Assembly: GCA_034423775.1 (NCBI GenBank)
Contig: CP139918.1
Span: 2,666,001-2,730,000 of the forward strand
Source of the DNA: Alphaproteobacteria bacterium US3C007
Lineage (GTDB): Bacteria > Pseudomonadota > Alphaproteobacteria > Rhodobacterales > Rhodobacteraceae
DNA: 64,000 nucleotides
Direction of reading: 5' to 3'
In this document: positions 9,513-64,000 of the stretch, piece after piece
How the letters are laid out: every line of letters begins with the position of its first letter
Position numbering within the stretch: the first letter of the stretch is position 1
Program-made: the position numbers and the translations under genes
The notes under the pieces: model-generated
Database searches by the model: none
What the model was told of the DNA's origin: nothing
Seen by the model: the letters and a program-made list of their open reading frames with translations, nothing else

Positions 9513-9578
9513 ATGTCTCAAGCCTGACATGACGAGACGATGCAACACAACTCAAGCTGCGTTAAAGCGACAGTAATA

Positions 9579-9593: not shown

Positions 9594-9685
9594 AACACAA
9601 GAACTTTTAGATTTGCATAGAATGCATATCGGCAATGCAATCTTGTGCATTGCTGACAGAGGCTGGTTTTCGCTATTAAATGGTC

Positions 9686-9784: not shown

Positions 9785-10180
9785 GAACGGAGGCAGCGCG
9801 CGCCGTCCGCGATCGTGACGCTACTTTTTCTGGGGTGCTTTTATGCCGGTTTTCAATATTTAGCTTGGGCGGTGCAAAATTTGCGCAAAAGCGCCAAATC
9901 AAAACCTGCCGCGTGATGTTCTTTTCGGCCAGAAAGCAATTACAGAAGCAAAATATGGGTTGCCTAAATATCCGCAAATTTTGACGCGTAGCGTTAAATT
10001 CGCCCTTTTCCTGTAGGAAGGCAGCATCAACCATCCTGCGGGCGGTTTTTTGCCGTTAAGAACGTGGTTTACCCGTTGCGATGGCGTATGAACGCGGCGG
10101 GGTTACGCATCTCAGAAGCCTTGGTATGGGCACTGCTCAAGCGGTTTTGAACGCGATATGCGCGTGCACTTCCCCTAATT
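9785..10180. other. Gene-free stretch
   Basis: No convincing gene. A plus-strand patch near 10085-10135 reads MNAAGLRISEAL, faintly like a tyrosine-recombinase motif, but it is open for too short a distance to call. A minus-strand 89-codon frame over 9765-10034 overlaps the terminator and has no recognisable content. Confidence 0.6.
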
Positions 10181-36158: not shown

Positions 36159-36238
36159 AATATTTGTCGTTTAAGGCAAATATAAACGGGCTGCCAGCGC
36201 GTATTGTTGGACTTGGATCAAGCGATAAGGGATTTGAT

Positions 36239-37150: not shown

Positions 37151-37155
37151 CGTAG

Positions 37156-37917: not shown

Positions 37918-37950
37918 CGCAAAGGCGCGCAGGCAAGGGGAATATGTGAA

Positions 37951-40523: not shown

Positions 40524-40553
40524 GTTGCTTTGAGATAAGGCAAGGGGGATAAA

Positions 40554-43461: not shown

Positions 43462-44778
43462 TCAGATATCCAGCGTATTCTCTTTTTCCCAGGTTGAAAA
43501 ATGCGCGGCGAATGCATCCCATTCCTGATGCTTTAACTTCAAATAAGCGGCTGAAAACTCATCTCCCAACATCGATTTTAAGCCTTTATTCTTGTTAAAT
43601 TCACGCAATGCGTCCAACAGGTTCAAAGGCAGGCGCGGGGCACCGCGCACCTTATGCCCTTCGGCATACATATCAATGTCATAGCGTTTGCCTGGATCGG
43701 CATTGGTGCTCACCCCATCCAGACCAGCGGCAATAATCACGGCTTGCAATAAATAGGGGTTGGCGGCTCCATCCGGTAGACGCAGCTCAAACCGGCCAGG
43801 CCCGGGCACGCGCACCATATGGGTGCGGTTATTGCTGGTCCATGTTACGGTATTGGGTGCCCAAGTGGCCCCCGACATCGTCCGCGGCGCATTGATTCGC
43901 TTGTAGCTGTTGACCGTGGGGTTGGTAATTGCGGCCAATGCGCTGGCATGTTTCATAATGCCACCCAAAAAGTGCCGCCCAGATTGCGACAGGCCCAGAT
44001 CCATCGCATCATCGGCAAAAACATTTGTTTTTGCCGCATTGCCGGCACCATCCCAAACCGAAATATGGGCATGGCAGCCATTGCCGGTGAGCCCTTCAAT
44101 GGGTTTTGGCATGAAGGTGGCGCGCAGACCGTGCTTTTCTGCAACGGATTTGGCCATGAATTTGAAAAAGCTGTGCTTATCGGCGGTTTTTAACGCGTCA
44201 TCGAATTCCCAATTCATTTCGAATTGGCCATTGGCGTCTTCATGATCGTTTTGATAGGGGCCCCAGCCCAATTCTAACATATAATCGCAAATTTCGCGGA
44301 TCACCTCATAGCGGCGCATCACAGCTTGTTGATCATAGCAGGGTTTTGCGGCGGTATCGAACGGATCGCTGATTTGATCGCCCTGTGGCGTGAGTAAAAA
44401 GAATTCAGCCTCAATGCCGGTTTTCACATGCAACCCCTGATCTGCAGCCCGATCAATAAGCTTGCGCAGCACGTTGCGCGGGGCCTGCGCGACATCTTCG
44501 CCCTCCATCACGCAATTCGCGGCCACCCAAGCCACCTCTGGCTTCCACGGCAATTGAATAACCGAAGACGCATCAGGCACCGCCAGCATATCAGGATGGG
44601 CGGGGGTCATATCAAGATAGGTTGCAAATCCGGCAAATCCGGCGCCATCCTCTTGCATTTCGGCGATGGCCTGCGCGGGTACCAGCTTGGCGCGCTGACC
44701 GCCAAAAAGATCGGTAAATGACACCATAAAATATTTGACACCTGTTGCTTTTGCAAATGCGGCGAGATCAGTGGTCAT
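43462..44778 (-). CDS. gmaS: Gamma-glutamylmethylamide synthetase
   Basis: 438-residue glutamine-synthetase-fold ligase that joins methylamine to glutamate with ATP. GS motifs: GIEAEFFLL, NDHEDANGQFEMNW, PKPIEGLTGNGCHAHISVW, NSYKRINAP, and PGRFELRLPDGAANPYL. N-terminal TGVKYFMVSFTDLFGGQRAKLVP is typical of roseobacter GmaS. Identity is supported by mgsABC directly upstream in the same operon and by mgd and tmm nearby. Distinct from the 492-residue paralogue at 60720. Last gene of mgsABC-gmaS. Confidence 0.92.
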   Translation of the reverse strand: MTTDLAAFAKATGVKYFMVSFTDLFGGQRAKLVPAQAIAEMQEDGAGFAGFATYLDMTPAHPDMLAVPDASSVIQLPWKPEVAWVAANCVMEGEDVAQAPRNVLRKLIDRAADQGLHVKTGIEAEFFLLTPQGDQISDPFDTAAKPCYDQQAVMRRYEVIREICDYMLELGWGPYQNDHEDANGQFEMNWEFDDALKTADKHSFFKFMAKSVAEKHGLRATFMPKPIEGLTGNGCHAHISVWDGAGNAAKTNVFADDAMDLGLSQSGRHFLGGIMKHASALAAITNPTVNSYKRINAPRTMSGATWAPNTVTWTSNNRTHMVRVPGPGRFELRLPDGAANPYLLQAVIIAAGLDGVSTNADPGKRYDIDMYAEGHKVRGAPRLPLNLLDALREFNKNKGLKSMLGDEFSAAYLKLKHQEWDAFAAHFSTWEKENTLDI

Positions 44779-44825
44779 CTTTTTTATCCTTTCGACTGTG
44801 ACAGGGGGCTTGGCAGTTTAAGAGT

Positions 44826-46172
44826 TTAAAATGGAGCCTCCGCGCCGGGTATCCAGCTGGTCCCGGCAAGCGGTACGCCAGCCATGGCGGCAGCTTCAAT
44901 CGTGAGGGCGCAGAGATCTTCGGGTTCCAAATTGCGCAAATTGTTTTTTCCGCAGGCGCGGGCGATGGTTTGTGCCTCGAGCGTCAAAACCTTAAGATAG
45001 TTCTTTAACCGTCGGCCAGCTTCGATCGGGTCCAGCCGGGCCATCAGTTCGGGATCTTGGGTTGTGATGCCAGCAGGGTCATTGCCCTCATGCCAATCAT
45101 CATAGGCGCCCGCTGTGGTGCCCAATGCCTGATACTCGGCCTCCCATTTGGGATCATTATCGCCCAGCGCAATCAAAGCGGCGGTTCCGATGGAAACAGC
45201 ATCTGCCCCCAGCGCCATGGCTTTGGCGACATCCGCGCCATTGCGAATTCCGCCCGAGACGACCAATTGAACTTTTCGGTGCATCCCCAGATCTTGCAGC
45301 GCTTTTACCGCCGGGCGAATGCAGGCCAAAGTGGGCAGGCCGACATGTTCGATGAACACATCCTGCGTGGCCGCTGTGCCGCCTTGCATCCCGTCAATCA
45401 CCACAACATCTGCCCCTGCTTTCACGGCAAGAGTTGTATCAAAATACGGGCGGGTTGCGCCTATCTTTACATAAATCGGTATTTTCCATTGGGTGATTTC
45501 GCGCAGTTCGGTCAGCTTGATTTCAAGATCATCGGGGCCGGTCCAATCGGGGTGCCGGCAGGCTGAGCGCTGATCAATACCCTTTGGCAGATTGCGCATA
45601 TCGGCCACGCGGTCCGATATTTTTTGGCCCAAAAGCATTCCGCCACCGCCGGGTTTCGCCCCTTGCCCGACCACCATTTCAATTGCATCGGCTTTGCGCA
45701 GATCGTCGGGGTTCATTCCATAGCGCGAAGGCAAATATTGATAGACCAGCTTATCAGAATGCCCGCGCTCTTCTGCTGTCATGCCGCCATCGCCGGTGGT
45801 GGTTGAAGTTCCCGCTGCTGTGGCGCCGCGCCCCAGCGCTTCTTTTGCAGGCCCAGATAGGGCGCCAAAGCTCATCCCCGCGATGGTGATCGGAATATCC
45901 AGTTTAATCGGATTTTGCGCGTAGCGCGTGCCCAATGTAACCGAGGTATCGCAGGTTTCACGGTAGCCCTCTAAAGGGTAGCGAGAGACCGAAGCACCCA
46001 AGAATAAAAGATCGTCAAAATGGGGAACCGCGCGTTTTGCGCCGCCGCCGCGTATGTCATAAATACCGGTCGCCGCAGCGCGGCGGATTTCGGCGTTTAC
46101 CGCCGGCGTAAATGTGGCGGATTGTATCGGTTCGGTGCGCGGCGTTGCCGCGGTTTCAGGGGGTTTGTTCAT
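44826..46172 (-). CDS. mgsC: N-methylglutamate synthase FMN subunit (GltB2-like)
   Basis: 448 residues with the FMN-binding glutamate synthase barrel: IAGMSFGALSGPAKEALGRG, TSTTTGDGGMT, VDVVVIDGMQGG-type strand (ADVVVIDGMQGGTAATQ) and VSGGIRNGADVAKAMALGAD. It makes N-methylglutamate from gamma-glutamylmethylamide and/or methylamine with 2-oxoglutarate together with MgsA and MgsB. The amidotransferase and GXGXG domains, fused in GltB, are separate genes here. 8 bases after mgsB. Confidence 0.9.
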   Translation of the reverse strand: MNKPPETAATPRTEPIQSATFTPAVNAEIRRAAATGIYDIRGGGAKRAVPHFDDLLFLGASVSRYPLEGYRETCDTSVTLGTRYAQNPIKLDIPITIAGMSFGALSGPAKEALGRGATAAGTSTTTGDGGMTAEERGHSDKLVYQYLPSRYGMNPDDLRKADAIEMVVGQGAKPGGGGMLLGQKISDRVADMRNLPKGIDQRSACRHPDWTGPDDLEIKLTELREITQWKIPIYVKIGATRPYFDTTLAVKAGADVVVIDGMQGGTAATQDVFIEHVGLPTLACIRPAVKALQDLGMHRKVQLVVSGGIRNGADVAKAMALGADAVSIGTAALIALGDNDPKWEAEYQALGTTAGAYDDWHEGNDPAGITTQDPELMARLDPIEAGRRLKNYLKVLTLEAQTIARACGKNNLRNLEPEDLCALTIEAAAMAGVPLAGTSWIPGAEAPF

Positions 46173-46180
46173 TCTTCACC

Positions 46181-46864
46181 TTAATAATCGCCGGCATGAT
46201 CGACGTCAAAATTATAGAGTTTGCGCGCCGATCCATAGCGCTTGAACTCGCTGGGTTTGGCCGTGCTTTCGGCGCGCTCAAGCAAAGCCTGCACTTCCGC
46301 CAAATCTTCGGGCCGCATCTCTTTTTCTATACAATCCGCACCTAAGGATTTAACTGCCCCGCGCACGAACAGCTTTGCCTCATATAGGCTATCGCCAAGC
46401 GCTTCGCCCGCGTCACCGCAGACAACCATTGTGCCGGATTGCCCCATAAAGGCCGACATATGTCCGATATTGCCATGCACCACGATATCAATCCCCTTCA
46501 TAGAGATCCCGCAGCGAGAGGAGGCATTGCCTTTGATCACCAAAAGCCCCCCATGGCCCGTTGCCCCTGCATACTGGCTGGCATCGCCCTCAATAATCAC
46601 CGTGCCGGACATCATATTTTCCGCAACGCCCGGGCCTACAGAGCCATTAATGCGCAGACGCGCCTGTTTGTTCATTCCTGCGCAATAATAGCCGGTTGAG
46701 CCCTCAACCGTGACGTCAATTGGTGCGTCTAATCCAACCGCAATCGCGTGGGCGCCTTTGGGGTTTAAGATCTGCCACGCTGTGAGCTTGGTGGCGGTGT
46801 TTTGATTTTGCAACTGCGCATTGGCCTGTCGCAGGTCTGTTTGGTCTAGATCGATTATCTGCAT
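46181..46864 (-). CDS. mgsB: N-methylglutamate synthase GXGXG subunit (GltB3-like)
   Basis: 227 residues of the right-handed beta-helix (GXGXG) domain of glutamate synthase: GYYCAGMNKQARLRINGSVG, GTVIIEGDASQYAGATGHGG, and GTMVVCGDAGEALGDSLYEA. Structural subunit with no catalytic residues of its own. Its ATG follows the mgsA stop directly. Shorter than the paralogue beginning at 63198 (over 267 residues). Confidence 0.9.
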   Translation of the reverse strand: MQIIDLDQTDLRQANAQLQNQNTATKLTAWQILNPKGAHAIAVGLDAPIDVTVEGSTGYYCAGMNKQARLRINGSVGPGVAENMMSGTVIIEGDASQYAGATGHGGLLVIKGNASSRCGISMKGIDIVVHGNIGHMSAFMGQSGTMVVCGDAGEALGDSLYEAKLFVRGAVKSLGADCIEKEMRPEDLAEVQALLERAESTAKPSEFKRYGSARKLYNFDVDHAGDY

Positions 46865-47761
46865 TTAATGGGTCCAAAAATAGACAGTTGCGGGCTCCGG
46901 CTCCCAAATATGGGCGTCGGCTATTCCGGGTAAATTCACCAAAGCCCGATATTCCGAGCCGAAGGCAACATATTGATCGGTTTCGGCCATCACCGCCGGT
47001 TTGCAGGCAATCGGATCGCGCAGCACGCCAAACCCATCCTTGGTGCCAACGACAAAGGTGAAAAACCCGTCCAGATCATCAAGGCTGCTTTGCAGCGCTT
47101 CGCCCAACGAGCTGCCGTTTTGCATTTTCCAAGTCAAATAGGCCGCGCCTACTTCGGTGTCATTTTCGGTTTCGATCACCACGCCTTCGCGCTGCAATTG
47201 ACGGCGCAGCGAATTGTGGTTGGACAAGGATCCATTATGCACCAAGCATTGATCCGGGCCGGTGTTAAAGGGGTGGGCGCCCATCGTGGTCACCGCGCTT
47301 TCGGTGGCCATTCTTGTATGGCCAATGCCGTGGGTGCCTTTCATCAGCGGGATATCAAACCGCTCTGCAACGCTTTTCGGGAGGCCAATATCTTTGTAAA
47401 TCTCGATATTATCGCCCGTGCTCATAACTCTGATGCCGGGATGAGCCCGGCGAATTCGGGCGCGGAGCTCACCGACCTGGTTTTGCACAATTTCAAAAAC
47501 CGCATGGCTGTTTTTGCGCTGCAAAGCTAGCGGCTGCTGGAAGGTTGATTTGAAATCTGCCTCTAGGGCGGCAAAATCTTGATCCGGGTGTGCAGATTGG
47601 ATGGTGATTTTGGCGCGATCCTCCACAGCCTCGCTATAGATGGCGATCCCTGCGCTGTCGGGCCCGCGATCCGACATAGTGACGAGCATATCCGTGAGCA
47701 TGCGCCCCAACGCAGCTTCCAGCGAGGGGTCTTTTAAGAAAAGCCCAACAATTCCGCACAT
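46865..47761 (-). CDS. mgsA: N-methylglutamate synthase amidotransferase-type subunit (GltB1-like)
   Basis: 298-residue class II (Ntn) glutamine amidotransferase domain. The nucleophile Cys2 follows the start Met (MCGIVGLFLKD), with GIGHTRMATES and HNGSLSNHNSLR as ammonia-channel and substrate motifs. In this pathway it would act on gamma-glutamylmethylamide instead of glutamine. First gene of the mgsABC-gmaS operon; an intrinsic terminator lies about 155 bases upstream, so it needs its own promoter in 47762-47914. Confidence 0.91.
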   Translation of the reverse strand: MCGIVGLFLKDPSLEAALGRMLTDMLVTMSDRGPDSAGIAIYSEAVEDRAKITIQSAHPDQDFAALEADFKSTFQQPLALQRKNSHAVFEIVQNQVGELRARIRRAHPGIRVMSTGDNIEIYKDIGLPKSVAERFDIPLMKGTHGIGHTRMATESAVTTMGAHPFNTGPDQCLVHNGSLSNHNSLRRQLQREGVVIETENDTEVGAAYLTWKMQNGSSLGEALQSSLDDLDGFFTFVVGTKDGFGVLRDPIACKPAVMAETDQYVAFGSEYRALVNLPGIADAHIWEPEPATVYFWTH

Positions 47762-50013: not shown

Positions 50014-51357
50014 ATGCAAAAACGTATCGCAGTGATCGGAGCCGGGCCATCGGGGCTTGCACAATTGCGTGCATTTCAATCCGCCGCCACCACAGGCGCT
50101 GAAATTCCAGAGGTGGTCTGCTTCGAAAAACAGGCCACGTGGGGTGGTTTATGGGCCTATGATTGGCGCACTGGTCTGGACGCAAATGGCGAGCCCTGCC
50201 ATAGCTCAATGTATCGCTATCTTTGGTCAAATGGGCCCAAAGAGGGCCTTGAATTCTCGGATTATAGTTTTGATGCGCATTTTGGTCGATCCATTGCTTC
50301 TTACCCTCCGCGTGCCGTTTTGTTTGATTATATCGAGGGTCGCGTAAACGCCGCTGGGGTCAAAGATTGGATCCGCTTTAACACGGTGATCCGTTGGGTG
50401 TCTTACGATCCTGCCAGCGAAAAATTTCACGTCACTGCCCATGATCATGAAAAGGACAGCAGCTATACTGAGCTCTTCGATCACGTGGTGGTGGCTTCGG
50501 GTCATTTTTCAACACCAAATATGCCGTATTATGAGGGGTTTGAAAGCTTTAACGGGCGGATTTTGCACGCGCATGATTTCAGAGATGCGCGCGAATTCAC
50601 CGATCAGGATATCTTAATTTTGGGCACTTCTTATTCTGCAGAGGATATTGGATCGCAATGTTGGAAATATGGCTGCCGCTCGGTGACTGTGGCGCATCGA
50701 ACCGCGCCGATCGGGTTTGATTGGCCCAAAAATTGGCAAGAAGTGCCCGCGCTAAAGCGCGTAGAGGGCAAAACTGCATATTTCATTGATGGCAGCAGTC
50801 GCGAGGTTGATGCAATCATTCTATGCACGGGTTACAAGCATTTCTTTAATTTCCTGCCGGATGATTTGCGTTTGGTCACGGCCAACCGGCTGGCTGCAGC
50901 TGATCTTTATAAAGGGGTGGCTTGGGTCCATAACCCGAAATTATTTTACCTTGGCATGCAGGATCAATGGTTCACTTTTAATATGTTTGACGCTCAAGCA
51001 TGGTGGGTAAGGGATGCGATTATGGGGCGGCTTGTGATACCTCAGGATAAAGCCCGTTTGCTGGCAGATGTGGCCGAGCGGGAGGCGCGCGAAGAGCGCA
51101 GCGATGATGCAAAATATGCAATCGCCTATCAGGGGGATTACGTGAAAGAGTTGATTGGCGAAACCGATTACCCAGATTTCGATGTTGATGGCGCCTGCGA
51201 GGCGTTTTTCCAATGGAAGGCGCATAAGGGTCAGGATATTATGGGTTTCCGTGATAATGGCTACAAGTCGGTGATCACTGGGAAAATGGCACTGGTTCAT
51301 CACACGCCCTGGAAAGAGGCTCTGGATGATTCATTGGAAAGCTATCTTCAAAGCTGA
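50014..51357 (+). CDS. tmm: Trimethylamine monooxygenase
   Basis: 447-residue flavin-containing monooxygenase that oxidises trimethylamine to TMAO with NADPH and O2. FAD site [16 protein letters not shown] (6-21), NADP site [14 protein letters not shown] (about 205), FMO-type motif [18 protein letters not shown], and [13 protein letters not shown]. The [17 protein letters not shown] and [17 protein letters not shown] stretches are diagnostic of bacterial Tmm. SD GTGAGGA lies upstream. No tdm or tmoXWV gene is adjacent, unlike several roseobacters. Confidence 0.96.
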
Positions 51358-51445: not shown

Positions 51446-52021
51446 TCATTGAACGTTGTGGATCGATGTTTCGAGCGCATGTAAAAACGATTTTGCCGAT
51501 GAACTGGCCGAAAACAGCCAATAGGTTTCGTGATCCACGCATAAAATTATTGTGCCCAGATGCTCCATCTGCGTGCGCGCAACCGCGTCAATCGCGAACC
51601 GCTCGGGGTGCAAATCAATTGGACAAATGCGCTCAAGCGCGCTGCGGCACCCAGGTCCGGATATTTCCAAACCAACCCAATTATGGCTTTGATCTGTTGT
51701 ATAAACGGCGCTTGTCATCAGGGTTTTAATCTGTTGCTCCGCGCGCCCGATATTCTGCGCTCGCGGGAAAAGCACAAACATCTGATCCAATCCCATGCGT
51801 AGCACCCGCGAGTCCAGTGGTGCCGCGCATTGGCTCTGCCCAATATCGGGCATATCGATACCAAAGCCTGCTTTCAAAGCCTTTTGCACGGCTTGCTCCT
51901 CTGCCAAGGGAACCGCCATCGAGACCATGCATATATCGCTGATCTCGCGCAGGCTGATTGGTCCAAATTGTGCTTGATAGCCGTTAAGAAATTCTTCCGA
52001 GGTTAATCTATACTCAGCCAC
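51446..52021 (-). CDS. mgdD: N-methylglutamate dehydrogenase gamma subunit (SoxG-like)
   Basis: 191 residues related to sarcosine oxidase gamma: FGPISLREISDICMVSMAVP at the N-terminus, LDSRVLRMGLDQMFVLFP, HNWVGLEISGPGCRSALERICPIDLHP, and MEHLGTIILCVDHETYWL. GTG 52021 is preferred because GGAGG lies 8 bases upstream; the longer frame from ATG 52045 has no site. It overlaps the alpha-subunit stop by 8 bases. Last gene of mgdABCD. Confidence 0.87.
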   Translation of the reverse strand: MAEYRLTSEEFLNGYQAQFGPISLREISDICMVSMAVPLAEEQAVQKALKAGFGIDMPDIGQSQCAAPLDSRVLRMGLDQMFVLFPRAQNIGRAEQQIKTLMTSAVYTTDQSHNWVGLEISGPGCRSALERICPIDLHPERFAIDAVARTQMEHLGTIILCVDHETYWLFSASSSAKSFLHALETSIHNVQ

Positions 52022-54962
52022 GTTGCCGTCCTCCATCCGGATCATAGAAATGAGGCGATACGATCTTTACTTGCACCTCTTTCTTCTGGGCCGGGTTGAC
52101 CGCGCGCACCACTTCTCCCATGCGTTCATGTCCCGCCTTTATAAAGCCCAAGCCGATCGAATGCCCCAAAACTGGTGAGTAGGCCACCGACGACATCCAG
52201 CCTTGATCATTGGCCATTGTTGCTGCGTCACTCAGCGCAATGAAATGCGCCCCTGCAGACAGCGCTTGGCTTTGATCTACGGGTTTAAACCCGACAAGGC
52301 GGATCGCATCCTCGCGGTTCATTTCCGGACGTTGAGACAGGGTTTTGCCGATGCAATCCTTCTTGGCGCTGACAAATCCGCCCAGCCCCAAATTCAACGC
52401 TGATGTTTGCCCGTTTAATTCATTGCCCGCGGCATGGCCTTTTTCGATTCGCATCACCCCAAGCGCTTCGGTGCCATAAGGCACGGCGTCAAATTCCTGC
52501 CCCGCTTGCATCAAGCAGTCCATCATTGCAGTGCCAAAGCGCGCGGGCACGGCGATTTCAAAGGCCAATTCACCCGAAAAAGAAATTCTGAACAAACGGG
52601 CTGGCGTGCCGCCGCAGACGGTTGTTTCCGCGCAAGCCATGAAGCCGAAGCCTTCATTTGATAAATCGAACGGTTTATCGACGAGCTTTTGCAACAGCGC
52701 GCGCGAATTCGGCCCGGCTACCGCAAATTGCGCCCAAGCATCCGTGCTGGAAATCATATGAACATCAAGCTCAGGCCACAGGCATTGCCGCGCAAATTCT
52801 AAGCGCCGAAAGACCAAGACGGCATTGGCCGTCGTGGTGGTCATCACAAAATGGTTTTCGCCCAACCGAGCTGTTGTGCCATCATCATAAGCGATGCCGT
52901 CTTCGCGCAGCATCAGCCCATAACGCACTTTGCCCACGGGCAGTTTCAGAAAGGCATTGGTGTAAACCTGGTTTAAAAACAGGGCAGCGTCTTTGCCTTG
53001 GATATCAATTTTTCCTAAAGTTGTGACATCGCAAATGCCCACCGACGCTCGGGTCATTTCTACTTCGCGATCAACGCTGTCGCGCCAGCCTTTTTCCCCG
53101 GGGCGAGCATACCATTGGGCGCGTAACCAATTCCCTGTTTCCACGAAGGTCGCGCCATTTTCTGTGGCCCAGCGATGGCTGGGGGTCAGCCGATAGGGGC
53201 GGAAATCCTTGCCGCGCGCGCGCCCAGCCAAAGCGCCCATGGGCACCGGCGTGTAGGGGGGGCGGAAAATCGTGGTGCCGGTTTCTGGGATCGTTTTGCC
53301 CGTACATTCCGCCATAATCGCCAAAGCCGGTATGTTGGAGGTTTTGCCCTGATCCGTGGCCATACCCAGCGTGGTATAGCGTTTGAGATGTTCAACCGAG
53401 CGAAACCCTTCCTGATAGGATTGGCGAATATCCTTGACCGTCACATCGTTTTGTAAATCTATCCAAGCGCGGGCTTTGCTAGCGCCGACATGCCAGAACG
53501 CGGCCCCCATGCTGGCTTCATCGCTGGCTTTGGGTGCGGCTTTTCGCGTGGCTGTGAAGCCCAGATCTTTGACCATCTCTTTGGCCTTTTGATGCGCGCC
53601 GCTCATCGCTTGCGACAGTGTTAGATCGCCTTGTGCGGCCCCCACAACCTGCATTCCTGAGGGAAGATGTTTGCCGGGTACAAACGCGTTTATGTCTTCT
53701 GCCCAGCTTGGTCGGCCACGTTGATGGCAGGTTAAATGGACATTCGGGTTCCAGCCACCAGAAACGGCTAAGCAATCTGTCGTAATCCTCTGGCCGGTTG
53801 TTAGGGTGATCTCTTTCAAAGCCTTGCGTCCGGATGTGTCCATCACGCCTGCGCCCATGACAATCTTAGCATGTGGAATGTCGGTCAATGGCGCAATATC
53901 CCGGCTGTCAATAACCGCAGCCACCGACACGCCCTGAGCGCTGAGATCGCGCGCTGTGCGCCACCCATCGTCATTATTTGTAAAGATGCTGATCCGCTTT
54001 CCCGGTGTGGCAGCAAACCGGTTTACATAGCTGCGCACCGCGCCCGCAAGCATAATACCGGGGCGATCATTATTGCCAAAGGCAATCGGGCGTTCCGTTG
54101 CGCCCGCGGCCAAAACGGCGCGCTTTGAATAGATGCGCCACAGGATTTGCCGGGGTTTTCCCCCAGAATGGGGCAAGTGGTCGGTGCGGCGCTCAAGCGC
54201 GCCATAAATGCCGTGATCATAGGCCCCATAGATTGTGGTGCGCGACATCAGCCTTACATTGGGCAGGCTTGCCAGCTCTTGCCAGAGCGCCTGCGCCCAA
54301 TCCGCCCCCTTTTTTCCATCAACCTCGAAGGTTTCGCTGTTGAGCCGCCCCCCCCCTCGGAAATCTTCATCTGCCAGAATAACCTGTGCCCCGCTGAACG
54401 CGGCGGCGCGCGCAGCGGCCAAACCACTAGGACCCGCGCCGATAACCAAAAGATCACAATGCAAAAACCCTTTGTCATAAATGTCTGGATCGTCTTCTAA
54501 AGACAGACTGCCCAAGCCAGCCGCCGCGCGAATGGCTGGTTCATACAGTTTTTCCCATGCAAATTTGGGCCACATGAAGGTTTTATAATAAAACCCGGCG
54601 CTTAAAAATGGCGATAGATAATCGGTAAAGGCCATCAGATCGAACTCTAAAGAGCCACGATGATTTTGGCTTTTCGCGCTGAGCTGGTCGAATAACTCGA
54701 CAGTGGTGGCCCTGGTATTCGGCTCTTGAAAGGCACCTTTGCGCAGTTCAACCAAAGCGTTTGGTTCCTCAGAGCCGGCGCTAAAGATACCGCGCGGGCG
54801 GTGGTATTTAAAACTGCGCCCCACCAGCGTTTGGCCATTCGCGATCAATGCTGAGGCCAGCGTGTCACCCTGATAGCCTTCAAAGCGCCGGCCATTAAAC
54901 TCAAAACTTAAGGGTGTTTTGCGATCGATAAAACCACCCGCGATACGACGAATTTGTTTCAT
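52014..54962 (-). CDS. mgdC: N-methylglutamate dehydrogenase alpha subunit (SoxA-like)
   Basis: 982 residues: N-terminal ferredoxin-like segment (RRFEGYQGDTLASALIANG), dinucleotide-binding domain ([21 protein letters not shown] near 170), and a C-terminal GcvT-like THF-binding half (about 600-975, ENGATFVETGNWLRAQW, AGPNSRALLQKLVDKP, GTEALGVMRIEKGH). It receives the methyl carbon as methylene-THF while the enzyme releases glutamate. Heterotetrameric sarcosine oxidase is the alternative; the choice of Mgd rests on gmaS/mgs context and the beta and delta subunits. Overlaps the delta gene by 4 bases. Confidence 0.87.
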   Translation of the reverse strand: MKQIRRIAGGFIDRKTPLSFEFNGRRFEGYQGDTLASALIANGQTLVGRSFKYHRPRGIFSAGSEEPNALVELRKGAFQEPNTRATTVELFDQLSAKSQNHRGSLEFDLMAFTDYLSPFLSAGFYYKTFMWPKFAWEKLYEPAIRAAAGLGSLSLEDDPDIYDKGFLHCDLLVIGAGPSGLAAARAAAFSGAQVILADEDFRGGGRLNSETFEVDGKKGADWAQALWQELASLPNVRLMSRTTIYGAYDHGIYGALERRTDHLPHSGGKPRQILWRIYSKRAVLAAGATERPIAFGNNDRPGIMLAGAVRSYVNRFAATPGKRISIFTNNDDGWRTARDLSAQGVSVAAVIDSRDIAPLTDIPHAKIVMGAGVMDTSGRKALKEITLTTGQRITTDCLAVSGGWNPNVHLTCHQRGRPSWAEDINAFVPGKHLPSGMQVVGAAQGDLTLSQAMSGAHQKAKEMVKDLGFTATRKAAPKASDEASMGAAFWHVGASKARAWIDLQNDVTVKDIRQSYQEGFRSVEHLKRYTTLGMATDQGKTSNIPALAIMAECTGKTIPETGTTIFRPPYTPVPMGALAGRARGKDFRPYRLTPSHRWATENGATFVETGNWLRAQWYARPGEKGWRDSVDREVEMTRASVGICDVTTLGKIDIQGKDAALFLNQVYTNAFLKLPVGKVRYGLMLREDGIAYDDGTTARLGENHFVMTTTTANAVLVFRRLEFARQCLWPELDVHMISSTDAWAQFAVAGPNSRALLQKLVDKPFDLSNEGFGFMACAETTVCGGTPARLFRISFSGELAFEIAVPARFGTAMMDCLMQAGQEFDAVPYGTEALGVMRIEKGHAAGNELNGQTSALNLGLGGFVSAKKDCIGKTLSQRPEMNREDAIRLVGFKPVDQSQALSAGAHFIALSDAATMANDQGWMSSVAYSPVLGHSIGLGFIKAGHERMGEVVRAVNPAQKKEVQVKIVSPHFYDPDGGRQRG

Positions 54963-55246
54963 TTGCTGCGGCCTCTTTCTTTTGCGACATCGCGGGCCAA
55001 TCGAACCGCTGTGATGTCATGGGTCAGCGTGTCGCGGGTGACCACCAGCCAAGACCGGTCGCCTTGTTCATGATACCAAAGTTCCTCATGCATCCCGGCC
55101 GGATTATCGCGCAGATAGCCATATTCAAAAAACCGATCGGCGGCATCTGCTGCATTTGGATCAGGCCGGTCGATCAGGCTTGCATCGCCCAAATAGACAA
55201 ATTCGGCTGCGTCGCGCGGGCCCAGCAGTGGGTGGTTGATAATCAT
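54959..55246 (-). CDS. mgdB: N-methylglutamate dehydrogenase delta subunit (SoxD-like, without zinc cysteines)
   Basis: 95 residues aligned in pattern with sarcosine oxidase delta (FFEYGYLRDNPAGMHEELWYHEQGDRSWLVVTRDT). SoxD begins with a Cys-X2-Cys zinc site and has a third Cys near GCGKW; here the start is IINHPLLGPRDAAEF and the later motif is QGDRSW, with no cysteine at all. This is consistent with MgdB, not SoxD, and is a useful marker for the operon's identity. Confidence 0.86.
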   Translation of the reverse strand: MIINHPLLGPRDAAEFVYLGDASLIDRPDPNAADAADRFFEYGYLRDNPAGMHEELWYHEQGDRSWLVVTRDTLTHDITAVRLARDVAKERGRSK

Positions 55247-55353
55247 GAAAAATCTCCTGCGCGCGCTCTGCTGCTAAGCTCGAGCGCGGGTAAGAAAGGA
55301 AAGCGGTATTGCGGGTATATAATCATTTCAAGTTCAACGCTTCGGTGCTGGGG

Positions 55354-56604
55354 TTAGTGTAAATTCGGTTGTGAGCCTTGGCCCTTTTCATCGATCAAAT
55401 GGCCGCGTTTGAACCGATCAAGGCGCAGCTCTGTTGCGACAGGGTGGGGGGCATCAGTCGCGAGCAAATGGGCATAGCATAAGCCACTGGCCGGGGTGGC
55501 TTTAAACCCGCCATAGCACCAGCCGCCATTGAAATAGAGCCCGTCAATATGGGTTTTGTCGATAAAGGGCGAACCATCCATAGACATGTCCATAATGCCG
55601 CCCCAGCTGCGCAACAAACGCGCCCGCCCGATCATCGGCATGATCGCCATTCCGCCCTCAGCCACATCTTCAACCACCGGTAAATTGCCGCGCTGGGCAT
55701 AGGTGTTATAGCCGTCAATATCACCACCAAAGACCAACCCGCCCTTGTCAGATTGGCTCACGTAAAAATGGCCGGCACCAAAGGTGATCACGCCGGGCAG
55801 GGTGGGTTTCAGACCTTCGGTGACAAACGCTTGCAACACGTGGCTTTCGATTGGCAGGCGCATGCCGGCTTGGGCCATCACGCGGCTGGATGATCCGGCC
55901 ACGCAAACGGCCACCTTGCGCGCTTTGATGGGCCCTTGACATGTTTCCACCCCGCTGCATTGGCCGTTTTCAATGTGAAACCCGGTGACTTCGCAATTCT
56001 GAATGATATCTACGCCTCGGCTATCAGCGCCGCGCGCGTAGCCCCAGGCCACGGCGTCATGGCGCACGGTGCCGCCCCGTCTTTGGTACAGCCCACCCTT
56101 GATGGGAAACCGCGCATTGTCAAAATCCAAAAAGGGAAGTTCGCGCCGCAATTGCTGCTGATCGGCCAATTCCGCATCTGCTCCGGCCAACATCATCGCA
56201 TTGGCGCGGCGCACAAACGCGTCGCGTTGTGGATCAGAGTGAAACAGATTGAGGATCGAGCGTTGGCTGACCATCGCATTATAATTAAAATCTTGTTCAA
56301 GGCCCTCCCAGAGCTTCAATGACAATTCGTAAAAGGGTTCGTTGCCCGGCAGCATGTAATTTGAGCGGATAATTGTTGTGTTGCGCCCTATATTGCCCGA
56401 GCCAAGCCAGCCTTTTTCTAACACTGCAACATTGGTGATCCCGTAGGTCTTGGCCAGATAATGCGCCGTCGATAGCCCGTGGCCGCCACCGCCCACGATC
56501 ACAACGTCATATCTGTCTTTCGGCTTTGGATCCCGCCAAGCAGGTTTCCAACCTTTATTTCCAGTCAATCCCTGCGTTAGAATTTTGAATGCGGAATAAT
56601 TCAT
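55354..56604 (-). CDS. mgdA: N-methylglutamate dehydrogenase beta subunit (SoxB-like)
   Basis: 416-residue FAD oxidoreductase, the catalytic subunit oxidising the N-methyl group. FAD site DVVIVGGGGHGLSTAHYLAK (about 33-52), the GSGNIGRNTTIIRSNYML region with the covalent-flavin environment, and the C-terminal NGGWCYGGFKATPASG with the conserved Lys. ATG 56604 is preferred over 56652, since AAGGTG precedes it and MNYSAFKIL is the usual opening. First gene of mgdABCD, divergent from the AraC-type regulator with about 80 bases between. Confidence 0.88.
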   Translation of the reverse strand: MNYSAFKILTQGLTGNKGWKPAWRDPKPKDRYDVVIVGGGGHGLSTAHYLAKTYGITNVAVLEKGWLGSGNIGRNTTIIRSNYMLPGNEPFYELSLKLWEGLEQDFNYNAMVSQRSILNLFHSDPQRDAFVRRANAMMLAGADAELADQQQLRRELPFLDFDNARFPIKGGLYQRRGGTVRHDAVAWGYARGADSRGVDIIQNCEVTGFHIENGQCSGVETCQGPIKARKVAVCVAGSSSRVMAQAGMRLPIESHVLQAFVTEGLKPTLPGVITFGAGHFYVSQSDKGGLVFGGDIDGYNTYAQRGNLPVVEDVAEGGMAIMPMIGRARLLRSWGGIMDMSMDGSPFIDKTHIDGLYFNGGWCYGGFKATPASGLCYAHLLATDAPHPVATELRLDRFKRGHLIDEKGQGSQPNLH

Positions 56605-56686
56605 GCTGACAACACCTTTGTTCCAATACCAGCTTACCGGATCACTTTGCATATACTTTTCTAAAAAGGACGCTTATTATAAATAA

Positions 56687-59142: not shown

Positions 59143-59199
59143 TTGGTCCAATTTTGTACCAATAATAGGAAATGTCAAGTAAAATTCAGCAAGTGGTAC
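59143..59199. promoter_or_regulatory. Candidate GntR operator half-sites
   Basis: TTGGT (59143-59147) and ACCAA (59158-59162) form an inverted repeat, and TGTACCA (59155-59161) is inverted again against TGGTAC (59194-59199). TTGGT..ACCAA resembles operators of FCD-type GntR repressors such as PdhR and LldR. It sits 12-70 bases upstream of the regulator's start, in the divergent promoter. Confidence 0.5.
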
Positions 59200-59310
59200 G
59201 AAATAGGTTGACTTTTGGTTTGCTTTTATCAAGCTCGACTTAGGTCTGGGCGGAAAAGCTGCCGCATAACGAAGGCAAAGCAGTTGGAACACTTTTAGGG
59301 AGATGGGTGA

Positions 59311-60654
59311 ATGGCGTTCCCCACACATGTAGACTACCTCATCATTGGCGCGGGCATTCATGGGTTATCCACAGCCTGGCGCTTGGCGGATCGTTTGATC
59401 GCTCAGGGTCAAGATGTTGAGGGCCGCGTTGTTGTTTTGGACAAATCGGGGATTGCGTCCGGAGCGTCGGGAATTGCCTGCGGCGTGGTACGAAACAATT
59501 ATTTTCAACCTGCGATGCGGGAACTTATGGCGCATTCCGTGGATGTTTGGGAAAGCGATCCGGCCGGACTCAGCTATCATCCTGTGGGCTATATGCAGAT
59601 TTCTTGCGAATCGATGCGTGAAGACGTGACCTCGATTTATGAGCAACAGCGAGCAATCGGTTATGAAAGCGAGTTTATCGAGGGTGCGGATGCTTGCGAT
59701 TCTTACATGAAATCCATGTTTAGCGATTGGCAGGCGCAAGGTATTACCTCGGTCCTGCATGAGAAGCGGGGGGGGTATTCGAACAACACCAAATCGATGT
59801 ACGGGCTGGCCAAGAAGGTCGAAGAGCGCGGGGTTCGGATTATCTCTGGTGTCGAGGTGAAGGGTCTGACAAGCGAAAGCGCCAGTTCTAGCATCAAATC
59901 TGTTGAGACATCCCATGGCACGCTATCTTGCGCGCATGTGGTTGTGGCGCCCGGTCCCTGGGCCCGAGATTTCTGGGATATGCTGGGCATGCCCAAAAAG
60001 ATCAGCCTAAAAGATTTAACGGGAAAGATGCATCACGACATCGATATGTGGCGATTCTGGCAACTTGAAGAAGGCGTTTTGCAATTGCCGCCTGAGGTGC
60101 TGCAAACCAATGATGGCAAAATACCACCGGTGATACATGTCGATACCGATGCCCCGCTACACTCTTGCGTGGATGGCAGCGTAATTACCGAAGATCTGTG
60201 GGGCATTTATTACAAACCTGATTGGCATTTTAACGGTATTCAAGGGGGCGCCTCGCCCTATAAAGTGGATACGCCGGTTGAGCGGGTTGCAATTGACCCT
60301 TACGGCCCCTCGTCTCCTGAATTTGTGGCCTCTGACGGTTTTGCTCATATGTGGGTCTCGGCCTTGGCGCATTGCCATCAGCGCTTTGAAGGCATGATGG
60401 GTAAATATCACCGTGAAGCATCCGGTGGCATCGGCTGTTTCACCGCCGATAGCTTTCCGGTTTTTGACCATTTTCATGAGAATGCCACGCTGATTGCGGA
60501 TAGTAATCATGGGTGGAAAATGCTGGGCGTCGGACATTTGATCGCCGATGAAGTGCTTGGCGAAAAGCAGAGCTTGTTAGAGCCTTTCCGCTTTGACCGT
60601 TTCGAAAAAGGAAATCTGCACCCAGTATCAAACAGCCCATATCCTTGGAGTTAG
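59311..60654 (+). CDS. FAD-dependent amine/amino-acid oxidoreductase (DAO family), substrate unknown
   Basis: 447 residues of the DadA/sarcosine-oxidase-beta/PuuB superfamily. FAD site YLIIGAGIHGLSTAWRLAD (about 9-27), flavin-contact region SGIASGASGIACGVVRNNYF, and C-terminal DSNHGWKMLGVGH. It shares the GIHGLS and RNNY features with the N-methyl amino acid dehydrogenases of mgdA type but is a separate branch with no alpha, gamma or delta partners nearby. First gene of the module with the GS-like ligase, class II amidotransferase and GltB3-like genes. Possible substrates are N-alkyl-glutamates or glutamylated amines. Confidence 0.85.
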   Translation: MAFPTHVDYLIIGAGIHGLSTAWRLADRLIAQGQDVEGRVVVLDKSGIASGASGIACGVVRNNYFQPAMRELMAHSVDVWESDPAGLSYHPVGYMQISCESMREDVTSIYEQQRAIGYESEFIEGADACDSYMKSMFSDWQAQGITSVLHEKRGGYSNNTKSMYGLAKKVEERGVRIISGVEVKGLTSESASSSIKSVETSHGTLSCAHVVVAPGPWARDFWDMLGMPKKISLKDLTGKMHHDIDMWRFWQLEEGVLQLPPEVLQTNDGKIPPVIHVDTDAPLHSCVDGSVITEDLWGIYYKPDWHFNGIQGGASPYKVDTPVERVAIDPYGPSSPEFVASDGFAHMWVSALAHCHQRFEGMMGKYHREASGGIGCFTADSFPVFDHFHENATLIADSNHGWKMLGVGHLIADEVLGEKQSLLEPFRFDRFEKGNLHPVSNSPYPWS

Positions 60655-60719
60655 TGGCTGGTGAAATCAAAAATATAAAAAAAGGCAAAAAAATAAAGAT
60701 ATAAAAGGGGAGAATTAAA

Positions 60720-62198
60720 GTGGCCGAAATGGACCTTGAACGTTTTGTGGAAGCGCCTGGGCGCGATGCGAAGATCAAAGAAGTGCGTAAGATGATCGAT
60801 TCCCTCGGCATCGAATATCTGTATCTTCAGTTTGTCTCTGTAACCGGAAAAATTATGGGCAAAGGCATTCCCTCAGATCATTGGGAAACCGTTGCTAAAA
60901 AAGGCTTTCAGCTGGTTTATGGCGCAACCGTCAACTTGTTCACGGATCGCGCGGGAAATTATATGGGATATGGACCCGAGGCTGCGGAATTGGTTGGTAT
61001 TCCCGAGCCTGAGACGTTTATGCAATTGCCTTGGGCACCGGAAATTGGACGGTTTTATTGCACTTTGTTTCGCAACCGCGAAGAGAAAGTGGATCCTGGC
61101 GCTTATTTGACTGCAGACTCTCGGGGCAATCTGCGCCGCATGCATGAAGAATTTAAGGCCAAGCATGGGCGCCAGCTGCGCATCGGCACCGAGCCCGAAA
61201 TGATGTGGCTGAAATTTGACGAGAATGGCAAGCCAAAAGACGGATTTTCAAAACCTTATTGTTATCACATTGATCAATTTGAAAGCCTGCGCCCCGTGAC
61301 CATGAAGGTTATGGAATACACTCGTAAAATGGGTTTGGATATGATTCAGGGCGATCATGAAGATGCGCCTGGTCAGCTTGAATTAAACTGGATGTTTGAT
61401 GATGTGCTGCGCAATGCCGACCGTCTGACAACTTACCGTCAGATCTGCGCGCAAGTGGCGCGCGAGCATGGTATTTTTGCATGCTTCATGACGAAACCGT
61501 TCATGGGCGTGTCAGCCTCTGGGTGCCACCATAACATGTCGCTCTGGCGGGGCGGCGAAGATCAGTTTGTCAAATGCGGAAATGATCCGGATAACCTGCC
61601 GGGCATGCGTGATAATTACATGTATGTAAAGGGCGGCAGCAACACGTTTATGCCCGATGATGATGATCCGCAAATGCCGGGCGCCGAAGGGCTGGTTGCG
61701 ATTGGCGGCGTGGTGAAAAACCTGCAAGCGTTGACCGCGATTGGCTGTTCGACGGTGAATTCTTACCGCCGCTTGTGGGATACGGGCTTTTGGGCGCCGG
61801 TATTTGCCGATTGGGGCTTCCAAAACCGGACCACGGGCTTGCGCGTCTCGGCGCCGGGCCGGTTCGAATATCGCTCGGTGGATTCAATGGTCAACCCGTA
61901 TTTGATGGGCACAACATTACTGGCCGCAATGGATGATGGGATTGATAACAGCATCAGCCCGGGCGAGCCTGAAGAGCGCAATATTTATGAGGCGATCAAA
62001 GAGGGCAAAGAAGTCAAGAAATTGCCAATGTCTTTGGGTGAGGCGCTGAGCTATCTCGAGCAAAGCGAAGTGGTGCGCCGCGGCATGCCGGGCGAAATGT
62101 ATCGTTTGTACCATGAATATAAATATGACGAATGGGCCCGCTTCATGTCCACGTCAACCGATTGGGACAATGAGATGTATATGGAGTGCTTGCCATAA
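60720..62198 (+). CDS. GlnT / type III-like glutamine synthetase paralogue (amine-glutamate ligase)
   Basis: 492 residues with a GTG start (60720) and GGGGAG 7 bases upstream. GS catalytic motifs are present: RIGTEPEMMWLKF, GDHEDAPGQLELNW, TKPFMGVSASGCHHNMSLW, NSYRRLWDTG, and APGRFEYRSVDSMVNPYL. It differs from gmaS by a longer N-terminus and an insertion near 290-320 (DDDDPQMPGAEG). The acceptor could be ammonia or an alkylamine. It sits exactly where gmaS would be relative to the GltB1/GltB3 genes downstream, so a ligase for a different amine is inferred. Confidence 0.87.
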   Translation: MAEMDLERFVEAPGRDAKIKEVRKMIDSLGIEYLYLQFVSVTGKIMGKGIPSDHWETVAKKGFQLVYGATVNLFTDRAGNYMGYGPEAAELVGIPEPETFMQLPWAPEIGRFYCTLFRNREEKVDPGAYLTADSRGNLRRMHEEFKAKHGRQLRIGTEPEMMWLKFDENGKPKDGFSKPYCYHIDQFESLRPVTMKVMEYTRKMGLDMIQGDHEDAPGQLELNWMFDDVLRNADRLTTYRQICAQVAREHGIFACFMTKPFMGVSASGCHHNMSLWRGGEDQFVKCGNDPDNLPGMRDNYMYVKGGSNTFMPDDDDPQMPGAEGLVAIGGVVKNLQALTAIGCSTVNSYRRLWDTGFWAPVFADWGFQNRTTGLRVSAPGRFEYRSVDSMVNPYLMGTTLLAAMDDGIDNSISPGEPEERNIYEAIKEGKEVKKLPMSLGEALSYLEQSEVVRRGMPGEMYRLYHEYKYDEWARFMSTSTDWDNEMYMECLP

Positions 62199-62274
62199 GG
62201 CATTTCCAAAATTGTAATGCGGCGGGCTAACCCCGCCAAACTTCTGACGCAACCCGATGGAGGTGGGATGTAAT

Positions 62275-63210
62275 ATGTGTGGTATCGCAGGATTAATTCA
62301 TAAGGGCAAAAGCTCAAATGTGGGGGGGGAGATGACAGCAATGTTGCAGGCCCTCAAGCATCGCGGGCCGGATTCGACGGGCTACGCTGTCTATGGCGAG
62401 CCAACCGAAGGCGATTATGTGCTTCGTTTGAAAGTGGCGGAAGCCGAAGATATGGCCAAAGGCCGTGGCATTCATCAGGTTTTGGCGGATCGCATCACGG
62501 AGGTGGAAGCGATCATGCAAGAGCATGGCGTGACGGTGAAAACGAAAGAGCACGCAACCGAATATGCTCTGCGCTATCTGATTTCCCATGAGGGGGATAC
62601 CACCGCACTGGCCGAGCATATTGAAGAAACCGATGGCGTTGAAATTTTATCGCTTGGAAATGGCCTAGAGCTGATCAAAGATTTGGGCGATGCGTCAGAT
62701 GTGGCCGGGCTTTATGGTCTGAATGAATTTAACGGAACGCATGGCATTGGCCATACGCGAATGGCAACCGAGTCGGATGTGGATATTCGCTCCGCGCACC
62801 CCTATTGGGCCTTTCCCTATAATGACGTGAGCGTTGTACATAACGGACAAATCACAAATTATTGGATTATGCGCCGCCAGATGGAGCGCAAAGGCCATCG
62901 CTTTATGTCAAATTGTGACAGCGAACTTTTGGCTGTTTACACTGCGAACAATTTAGCAAATGGCGTAACGCTTGAGCAATCATTGCGCAATTCAATCGAA
63001 GAAATTGACGGCGTCTTTACCTATTTGGTCGCTACCAAAGATCAACTGGGCATGGCCAAAGATACGATGGCTGCAAAGCCATTGGTGCTTTACGAAAGCG
63101 ATGATTTGATCGCTATGGCATCAGAAGAAGTCGCTATTCGGGCCATTCTTCCCCAAGAAATTGACACTTACGATCCCTATGATGAGGAGGTACGCGTATG
63201 GCAAGCCTAA
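62275..63210 (+). CDS. Class II glutamine amidotransferase domain protein (GltB1-like, paralogue of mgsA)
   Basis: 311 residues. ATG 62275 is chosen because it places the nucleophile at Cys2 (MCGIAGLIHKG); ATG 62257 would bury it. GIGHTRMATESDVD and VVHNGQITNYWIMRRQ motifs match the Ntn amidotransferase of split glutamate synthases. Its 3' end overlaps the GltB3-like start by 13 bases. Parallels mgsA at 46865. Confidence 0.88.
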   Translation: MCGIAGLIHKGKSSNVGGEMTAMLQALKHRGPDSTGYAVYGEPTEGDYVLRLKVAEAEDMAKGRGIHQVLADRITEVEAIMQEHGVTVKTKEHATEYALRYLISHEGDTTALAEHIEETDGVEILSLGNGLELIKDLGDASDVAGLYGLNEFNGTHGIGHTRMATESDVDIRSAHPYWAFPYNDVSVVHNGQITNYWIMRRQMERKGHRFMSNCDSELLAVYTANNLANGVTLEQSLRNSIEEIDGVFTYLVATKDQLGMAKDTMAAKPLVLYESDDLIAMASEEVAIRAILPQEIDTYDPYDEEVRVWQA

Positions 63211-64000
63211 GCGATACTGAACTAAAGCAAATGAGTCAGGAAGAGCGGGTGACCGCGCTTGGAATGCGCACCGAGGCACTGACGGGAAAATCGCTTTACA
63301 TTGAGTTTGATCCGGATGCGGAAGAGCGCTTCACATACCCTTGGGCGCCCGAAGTCGATTACAATAAGCGCACCGAACTTGATACAGATGAAATGACCAC
63401 CACCGAGGTGAATTCCAAAATTCGGGCCCTCATGGCCGAAGGCTATGGCACGATTGTGCTGAAAAATCCGCGCGGAAAGCATTCGCTGGGCGTGGGGATC
63501 CTAAGCCGGTTGAATTTAATTATTGAGGGCTCGTTGGGCTATTTTGGTGTTGGGTTGATCGATGGTCCGAATGTGCGCATCAACGGGCGCGTGGGCTGGT
63601 CTTGCGGCGAAAATATGATGGCTGGAACGATTGTCATTGAAAAAAACGCCGGTTCGACCTTTGGCGCTGCGATCCGCGGCGGGGATCTGGTCTGTCGGGG
63701 GTCGGTTGGCTCTCGGACAGGTATTGACCAAAAAGGCGGTACGATACTTGTCGGTGGTGACACGGGGGCTTTATCGGGCTTTATGATGCAACGCGGTCGG
63801 ATGGTTGTGTGTGGAAATGCGGGTAAAAACCTTGGCGATTCAATGTATGACGGCACCATTTTTGTGGGCGGTAAGATTCAATCGCTTGGAGTGGATGCAA
63901 TCGAGGCGGAATTGACTGACCTTGATCGCGACTGGCTCACCGCAAAGCTGACCCAATATGGCATGATGCCCGATAAGGGTGTTGACCATTTTACAAAGAT
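63198..64000 (+). CDS. GXGXG-domain glutamate synthase subunit (GltB3-like), 3' end cut by window
   Basis: Open from ATG 63198 to the window edge, 267 codons visible, no stop. The N-terminal ~70 residues (EERVTALGMRTEALTGKSLYIEF) are not found in mgsB. The beta-helix core follows: SLGVGILSRLNLIIEGSLGY, INGRVGWSCGENMMAGTIVI, GSVGSRTGIDQKGGTILVGG, and GRMVVCGNAGKNLGDSMYDG. An FMN subunit (GltB2/mgsC-like) is expected next, beyond the window. Confidence 0.85.
   Translation, partial: MASLSDTELKQMSQEERVTALGMRTEALTGKSLYIEFDPDAEERFTYPWAPEVDYNKRTELDTDEMTTTEVNSKIRALMAEGYGTIVLKNPRGKHSLGVGILSRLNLIIEGSLGYFGVGLIDGPNVRINGRVGWSCGENMMAGTIVIEKNAGSTFGAAIRGGDLVCRGSVGSRTGIDQKGGTILVGGDTGALSGFMMQRGRMVVCGNAGKNLGDSMYDGTIFVGGKIQSLGVDAIEAELTDLDRDWLTAKLTQYGMMPDKGVDHFTK

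Follow-up and report, generated by a model that had tools for sequence, protein, structure and literature searches.

An operon at one end of a 64,000-nucleotide stretch of the genome of Alphaproteobacteria bacterium US3C007 (hereafter the window: G000:C1:2666001-2730000, in a 3.62 Mb genome made of a single contig) probably encodes a glutamylation route for dimethylamine (DMA), the product of Tdm, and would stand in for DmmDABC. Such a route is a novel variation on the gamma-glutamylmethylamide pathway. What points to DMA as the probable substrate of its ligase is a mutual exclusion: no genome that we sampled carries both this ligase and the dmm genes.

Four genes of the operon begin in the window, all on the forward strand: FADox (59311-60654; 447 amino acids; PF01266), a single-subunit DAO/SoxB-like FAD oxidoreductase; GSlig (60720-62198; 492 amino acids; PF00120), a ligase resembling glutamine synthetase (GS); glxB2 (62257-63210; PF13522/PF13537), a class II amidotransferase similar to GltB1 and MgsA; and glxC2 (63198-64000, where the window end cuts it; PF01493), a GXGXG protein similar to GltB3 and MgsB. 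A regulator gene with FCD (PF07729) and GntR (PF00392) domains, both above cut-off, diverges from them (58445-59131, minus strand). An earlier note on this DNA had described this four-gene run and the divergent FCD-type GntR gene, and all of them lie where it placed them, with Pfam support. It had also pointed beyond position 64000 for a GltB2/mgsC-like gene and a transporter. On the contig (in window numbering, i.e. the position in locus L012 plus 58000), glxD2, encoding a GltB2/mgsC-like FMN protein, lies just past the end (64090-65454), followed by p137 (65467-65880; 7467-7880 of L012), which encodes a protein of 137 amino acids, a C-N hydrolase gene (65885-66742) and p194 (66739-67323), which encodes one of 194; a transporter of the type for trimethylamine N-oxide (TMAO) stands further on. 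Intergenic gaps in the operon are below 80 bp, and some genes overlap.

The ligase and dmm exclude each other

We surveyed 295 genomes of the family Rhodobacteraceae, one per genus, for the ligase (E 1e-100), Tmm, GmaS, Tdm and, as a marker of the DmmC subunit, PF11927, whose scores split within the family into at least 215 bits in 41 genomes (called dmm) and at most 199 bits in the rest. Either tmm or tdm is present in 71 genomes, 26 of which have GSlig (at least 69% identity) and 40 dmm, with none having both and five having neither (G032, G033, G155, G183 and G271; G033 is 74% complete, and the cluster of G271 runs into a contig end). The exclusion between GSlig and dmm gives a Fisher p of about 1e-14 when kinship is ignored. 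The 224 genomes without tmm and tdm contain no ligase, and dmm once (G156). An amine unrelated to trimethylamine (TMA) was rejected on the basis of this survey. Homarine catabolism was rejected too: a literature search returned no paper on a homarine operon, and PMC13390433 ties homarine to Mgd only.

The pattern extends beyond the family. Among 241 genomes from the class, 12 have Tmm, and 10 of these belong to eight family groups outside Rhodobacteraceae. GSlig occurs in nine of the ten at 66-74% identity (partial in G446), with PF11927 scoring at most 51 bits; G434 has dmmDABC and no GSlig. As far as checked, DmmC is also missing from 27 further GSlig genomes, reached through 28 loci chosen from 80 named ones, of which L065 gave no genome; here the two top-scoring PF11927 matches are 25-27% identical to DmmC and the others score at most 192 bits.

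The PF11927 score is an imperfect marker: the matches of G543 (228 bits) and G533 (200 bits), and one of the two of G434 (272 bits), share only 25-30% identity with DmmC and lack Dmm neighbours. There are 42 dmm genomes, the 41 in the family and G434; we read the DmmC locus in 18 and called the other 24 by a score of at least 215 bits only. DmmA, B or D stands alongside in 17 of the 18; in the last (G274) the gene lies at the end of the stretch. No true DmmC, i.e. one at least 68% identical to that of G010 and accompanied by DmmA, B or D, was found in the genome of the window, whose sole PF11927 match is 24% identical and without Dmm neighbours. Ligase homologues at 51-52% identity (G046, G254, G282) were excluded as another subfamily, which forms its own clade and has neither TMA genes nor glxBCD alongside.

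The order of a divergent GntR gene, FADox (in some loci), ligase, glxB2, glxC2, glxD2, p137, C-N hydrolase (in some loci) and p194 is repeated in Rhodobacteraceae, in SAR116 and in one metagenome-assembled genome of Granulosicoccaceae, and recurs with variations in Hyphomicrobiales. This arrangement is not due to chance: where public loci extend 4.2 kb or more past the 3' end of the ligase (66 loci), a script found glxB2, glxC2, glxD2 and p137 directly downstream in 58, and inspection added L050 as the 59th; the other seven have a P450 at that place. A TMA or methylamine gene lies within reach in 51 of the 69 loci of at least 12 kb. Among cultured strains, Ruegeria arenilitoris (L058), for which PF11927 gave no match at the level of DmmC, and Pseudaestuariivita atlantica (L032) both have tmm adjoining the operon.

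A proposed route to N-methylglutamate

GSlig would act as a gamma-glutamyl-dimethylamide synthetase. It scores 295.8 bits (290.8 for the SAR11-like GSlig) with the GmaS/type III model TIGR03105, below the cut-off of 469.6 that the window's GmaS passes with 662.5 bits. Two known classes were rejected as its identity: ammonia GS (GlnA, TIGR00653, 242 bits against a cut-off of 429, with Asp50 replaced by V in 106 of 106 rows) and PuuA-type gamma-glutamylputrescine synthetase (NF045547, 209.8 bits against 650). In RhGmaS numbering (PMC7948447), the amine-pocket and catalytic residues of GmaS, K30, Y147, Q175, D177, E179, E186 and N188, are kept in 106/106 GSlig rows, and the ammonia-binding Asp50 position, V in GSlig, is A in GmaS. 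The view of the earlier note that the ligase is no ammonia-specific GS is borne out by the failed GlnA cut-off, the V at Asp50 and the retained pocket. N176, which precedes the catalytic Asp177, is G in 106/106 GSlig rows and N in 16/16 of GmaS. This mapping of RhGmaS positions drifts beyond about position 250, and positions 300 and 312 were left out. Tuning of such a ligase to DMA makes chemical sense, because RhGmaS already accepts this amine, with a Km of 16 mM as compared to 27 uM for methylamine (Table 1 of PMC7948447).

In the ligase tree, GSlig forms a clade of its own with the subfamily that was set aside, apart from GmaS, although branches are long and the joining is unsure. L177, L181 and L182 represent a sister GS-like subfamily, 50-51% identical to GSlig and without glxBCD or TMA genes alongside; all three have a P450 about 2.8 kb upstream and perhaps encode another route that glutamylates and then oxidises.

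The genes behind the ligase have an MgsABC-type layout, judged by Pfam matches and order: adjoining genes for a class II amidotransferase, a GXGXG protein and a Glu_synthase-domain protein. The start of glxB2 is probably an internal MCGI at about 62275, since MCGI occurs within the first 40 residues in 120 of 129 glxB2 rows. The enlargement of the GXGXG protein reported by the earlier note is real: full-length glxC2 ends at 64067 (window numbering) and encodes 289 amino acids, as compared to 227 for the window's mgsB. GlxD2 carries a CxxCx4C motif in 90/90 rows, found in 2 of 11 mgsC rows, which we take to resemble that of iron-sulphur glutamate synthase. p137 is a steady companion of glxD2, present in 22 of the 26 ligase genomes (missing from G083, G219, G239 and the fragmented G160) and in none of the 40 with dmm. 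Across 29 sequences, 64 of its 137 columns are invariant, and it gave no match to a known domain and no clear fold match.

These components suggest the following route. First, GSlig would use ATP to attach DMA to the gamma-carboxyl group of glutamate, giving gamma-glutamyl-dimethylamide. Second, GlxB2-GlxC2-GlxD2, probably with p137, would free DMA from the amide and channel it to 2-oxoglutarate, where the resulting iminium would be reduced to N,N-dimethylglutamate and glutamate regenerated, much as in glutamate or N-methylglutamate synthase. Third, FADox as an N,N-dimethylglutamate demethylase, or elsewhere another flavoprotein such as Mgd, would take off one methyl group to give N-methylglutamate. 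Fourth, Mgd would move the second methyl group onto tetrahydrofolate. FADox is placed after the synthase because the oxidation of an amide N-methyl group by such a flavoenzyme would be unlikely chemistry. FADox is not universal, and we give these exact intermediates about an even chance of being right.

In ten loci (L044, L065, L069, L070, L073, L076, L083, G083, G219 and G239) a P450 stands directly 3' of the ligase and glxBCD2 is missing there; L070 is from Salipiger bermudensis HTCC2601. The P450 was confirmed by Pfam in six of them (L044, L065, L073, G083, G219, G239) and assigned by similarity in the other four. Among the 140 ligase rows of at least 60% identity with room downstream, in which several genomes are counted twice, the next gene is glxB2 in 126 and a P450 in 13 (the ten distinct loci), never both; the single row called neither by the script is L050, which does have glxB2. 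The presence of a P450 in the place of the synthase suggests that the product of the ligase needs an oxidative step that the methylamide would not, which slightly raised our confidence in DMA as the substrate. Here the P450 would take one methyl group off gamma-glutamyl-dimethylamide and leave gamma-glutamylmethylamide for an ordinary mgsABC; G083, G219 and G239 all have gmaS, with mgsABC alongside it in G083. FADox occurs in none of the ten loci; it is also missing from L043, L045 and L053, where a P450 follows p194. A GMC-type oxidoreductase gene is found in nine of the ten ligase-P450 loci (L044, L065, L069, L070, L073, L076, L083, L136, L139), at least 59% identical to that of L073, which was assigned by Pfam.

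The operon shares with gmaS-mgsABC-mgdABCD a GS-superfamily ligase with the same amine-pocket residues, a three-gene GltB1/B3/B2 synthase and Mgd downstream. It differs by sequence (identities to the window's set of 28% for the ligase, 33% for GltB1 against mgsA, 41% for GltB3 against mgsB and 54% for GltB2), by the CxxCx4C of its GltB2, which nine of 11 mgsC rows lack, by the addition of p137 and FADox, and by being tied to tmm/tdm instead of gmaS. With DmmDABC it shares the position in the TMA pathway, the same cluster in G010 and the proposed substrate. The two have no visible sequence relation: Dmm is, by its Pfam names, a haem-type N-demethylase with a reductase and yields methylamine, whereas the operon would spend ATP and glutamate and give N-methylglutamate. 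In the PuuABCD and isopropylamine (IpuC) routes, too, the amine is glutamylated before oxidation, and the P450 version resembles the latter, in which the amide is oxidised while glutamylated; we know of no GOGAT-like synthase in either.

SAR11 and the published gap in dimethylamine breakdown

The genome G478 (one contig), SAR11-like by its size (1.2 Mb) and GC (about 0.32) only, has tmoX alongside tdm, FADox, ligase, glxB2, glxC2, glxD2, p137, amt and gmaS in a row. Homologues of its ligase at 77% identity are in sequences named SAR324 and Arenicellales. In the SAR11 strain HTCC1062, the published tags are opuAC for SAR11_1302, gcvT-like for 1303 and monomeric sarcosine oxidase for 1304 (PMC3160333), glnT, a glutamine synthetase, for 1305 (PMC5069961), and hypothetical for 1309, followed by amt as 1310 (PMC2704228); a second glnT, 1316, has glxBCD as 1313-1315 (PMC3160333). 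The numbering of these tags fits the nine-gene order of G478, and predicts glxBCD2 at 1306-1308.

With TMAO as its only source of nitrogen this strain still grows, although no dmmDABC homologue was found in it; the replacement enzyme is left open, with an unnamed Dmm isoenzyme suggested (PMC8918994). The operon is a concrete candidate for this missing DMA step. DMA feeds marine aerosols. The absence of dmm from SAR11 and from abundant gamma- and deltaproteobacteria has been argued to be a bottleneck in its breakdown (PMC5520151). If the operon fills the missing step, surveys of dmm only would understate the marine use of DMA. We slightly favour the view that a main route of DMA in the ocean passes through gamma-glutamyl-dimethylamide and N,N-dimethylglutamate, most commonly in an oxygenase-free form. 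It would operate in SAR11, in SAR116 and in many roseobacters, with SAR324 and some gammaproteobacteria as probable further users, and the published bottleneck would then not exist.

Alternative explanations

Methylamine use does not predict the operon. GSlig is found in none of the 37 genomes of the family with gmaS and without tmm/tdm, which suggests that the operon tracks the steps producing DMA; it is exclusive with dmm and not with gmaS, which accompanies it in 21 of the 26 GSlig genomes. This makes a second route for methylamine unlikely, e.g. a gmaS-mgsABC isoform of high affinity or other regulation, with DMA merely excreted as the bottleneck model has it, even though the enzyme classes of the operon are those of gmaS-mgsABC, its ligase keeps the GmaS pocket, and the stretch around gmaS of G478 showed no mgsABC, so that glxBCD2 could serve methylamine there. 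Such a route would also have no need for the P450 of the ten loci, and HTCC1062, which can live on TMAO as its only source of nitrogen (PMC8918994), needs full demethylation for this.

The search for gmaS (E cut-off 1e-120, with up to five candidates scored in each genome) left five GSlig genomes without the gene (G064, G079, G101, G102 and G195), among which G101 is a single contig, and two of the 41 dmm genomes, both less than 85% complete. GSlig genomes without gmaS fit a route from DMA that yields N-methylglutamate without free methylamine. They would be left unexplained if FADox itself were the DMA oxidase, a Dmm isoenzyme releasing methylamine, with the ligase and synthase processing only the latter. 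We regard this as very improbable, since FADox is missing from 14 of the 26 dmm-less GSlig genomes, of which 22 have p137; its adjacency to tdm in G478, its absence from all 40 dmm genomes, its position near the ligase in seven of the nine GSlig genomes outside the family (it was not seen in G449 and G457) and the isoenzyme proposed in PMC8918994 speak for it.

The earlier note had seen here a complete gamma-glutamyl route for another amine, in which the single FAD oxidoreductase replaces Mgd. Another amine, probably DMA, stands in view of the exclusion with dmm; the route is not self-contained, and the replacement of Mgd is not supported: 24 of the 26 GSlig genomes have an MgdC of at least 52% identity, with a homologue of 46-47%, a level shared with sarcosine-oxidase-like paralogues, in the other two (G004, G054), while FADox is found in 12. 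FADox scores 75.3 bits with the model of the Mgd/heterotetrameric sarcosine oxidase beta subunit (soxB, TIGR01373), far below the cut-off of 529, and the window's mgdA 673. The route seems to feed N-methylglutamate into Mgd.

The ligase and dmm labels need three changes on a smaller Tdm tree (69 genomes) and four on a larger one (83 rows, in which L034 and L065 were labelled by the ligase alone and the Tdm of four further loci is not included). On the latter, rooted at midpoint, several deep branches hold ligase genomes, and one clade holds 36 of the 40 dmm rows. The most telling change is a local one: the Tdm of the window's genome sits among those of G288, G010 and G166, which carry dmm instead, and in G010 the swap is in place: genes for a GcvT-domain protein, a DmmA-like protein, a reductase and the PF11927 protein (by Pfam names), i.e. 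dmmDABC, follow one another between mgs and mgd, inside the corresponding cluster. That the operon serves another amine met by TMAO users (e.g. one formed when carnitine, choline or glycine betaine is broken down), the exclusion reflecting two inherited versions of the cluster, would agree with kinship accounting for most of the raw p, and is as improbable as a DMA oxidase, given that the swap turns up in separate parts of the Tdm tree (G010/G166, G288, G434) and outside the family, and that the ligase is confined to tmm/tdm genomes.

A number of observations weigh against the DMA route. First, the exclusion has no exception in the sample and rests on few events, with three to four independent switches resolvable: the larger tree gives three independent pairs that all point the expected way (sign test, p 0.25), and the smaller three pairs, of which a mean of 1.9 point that way and 1.1 show no difference (p 0.5). 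Second, G046 has both dmm and one of the 51% ligase homologues assigned to the other subfamily. Third, three of the 14 GSlig genomes that lack FADox (G083, G219, G239) have the P450 version, and in the other 11 no P450 was seen next to the ligase, which leaves the third step without a named enzyme there. Fourth, in 18 of the 69 long loci, 10 of them titled Roseovarius, neither a TMA nor a methylamine gene lies within reach. Fifth, that the N176G change enlarges the pocket is a guess from the sequence.

Genetic context and further observations

The operon is part of a TMA/TMAO/methylamine cluster and no free-standing amine island. Upstream of it, the window contains the known methylamine module gmaS-mgsABC (43462..47761, minus strand), an ammonium transporter gene, a Tmm-like trimethylamine monooxygenase gene (50014..51357, plus strand), named by eye from its sequence and cluster and used as query, the genes of N-methylglutamate dehydrogenase, mgd (51446..56652, minus strand), whose beta-like subunit is the soxB-family protein scored above, and an AraC-type regulator gene. 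Past the window end, p194 is followed by a LysR gene on the opposite strand, TmoXWV-like genes (68808-73088, window numbering), which look like the TMAO transporter, and Tdm (73098-75482; NF053776, 1191.2 bits, above the cut-off of 1100). The closest named record that we found is Rhodobacteraceae bacterium SB2 (L017), whose ligase is 100% identical to that of the window.

The GntR gene adjoins the operon in many relatives and is possibly TmoR-like: in R. pomeroyi, tmm is repressed by a GntR regulator, TmoR, whose effectors are DMA or TMAO (PMC13390433). The possibility that the operon lies directly behind tmoR in R. pomeroyi was ruled out, SPO1557 being fhs-1 (PMC4744692). Between the GntR gene and FADox, an imperfect inverted repeat (59148..59207; 14-nt arms, 86% complementary, 32-nt spacing) is a candidate operator that might have arisen by chance. 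A class I glutamine amidotransferase gene at 57715-58434 (PF00117, weak Peptidase_C26) recurs between the AraC and GntR genes in many relatives.

Adjoining the TMA cluster, the run at 35172-43380 contains an AraC gene and, listed by eye, BKACE-, SDR- and 3-hydroxyacyl-CoA dehydrogenase/thioesterase-like open reading frames (ORFs), together with acyl-CoA dehydrogenase-, acyl-CoA synthetase- and enoyl-CoA hydratase-like ones; by eye it resembles a set for carnitine or betaine breakdown. Elsewhere in the genome (L015, G000:C1:112001-126000, positions 5256-9971), two further GS-like ligases, both below the cut-off of all five NCBIfam GS models that they match, stand behind an amino-acid ABC transporter and are accompanied by class I amidotransferase-like and FAD oxidoreductase-like ORFs, possibly forming a Puu-like glutamylation cluster.

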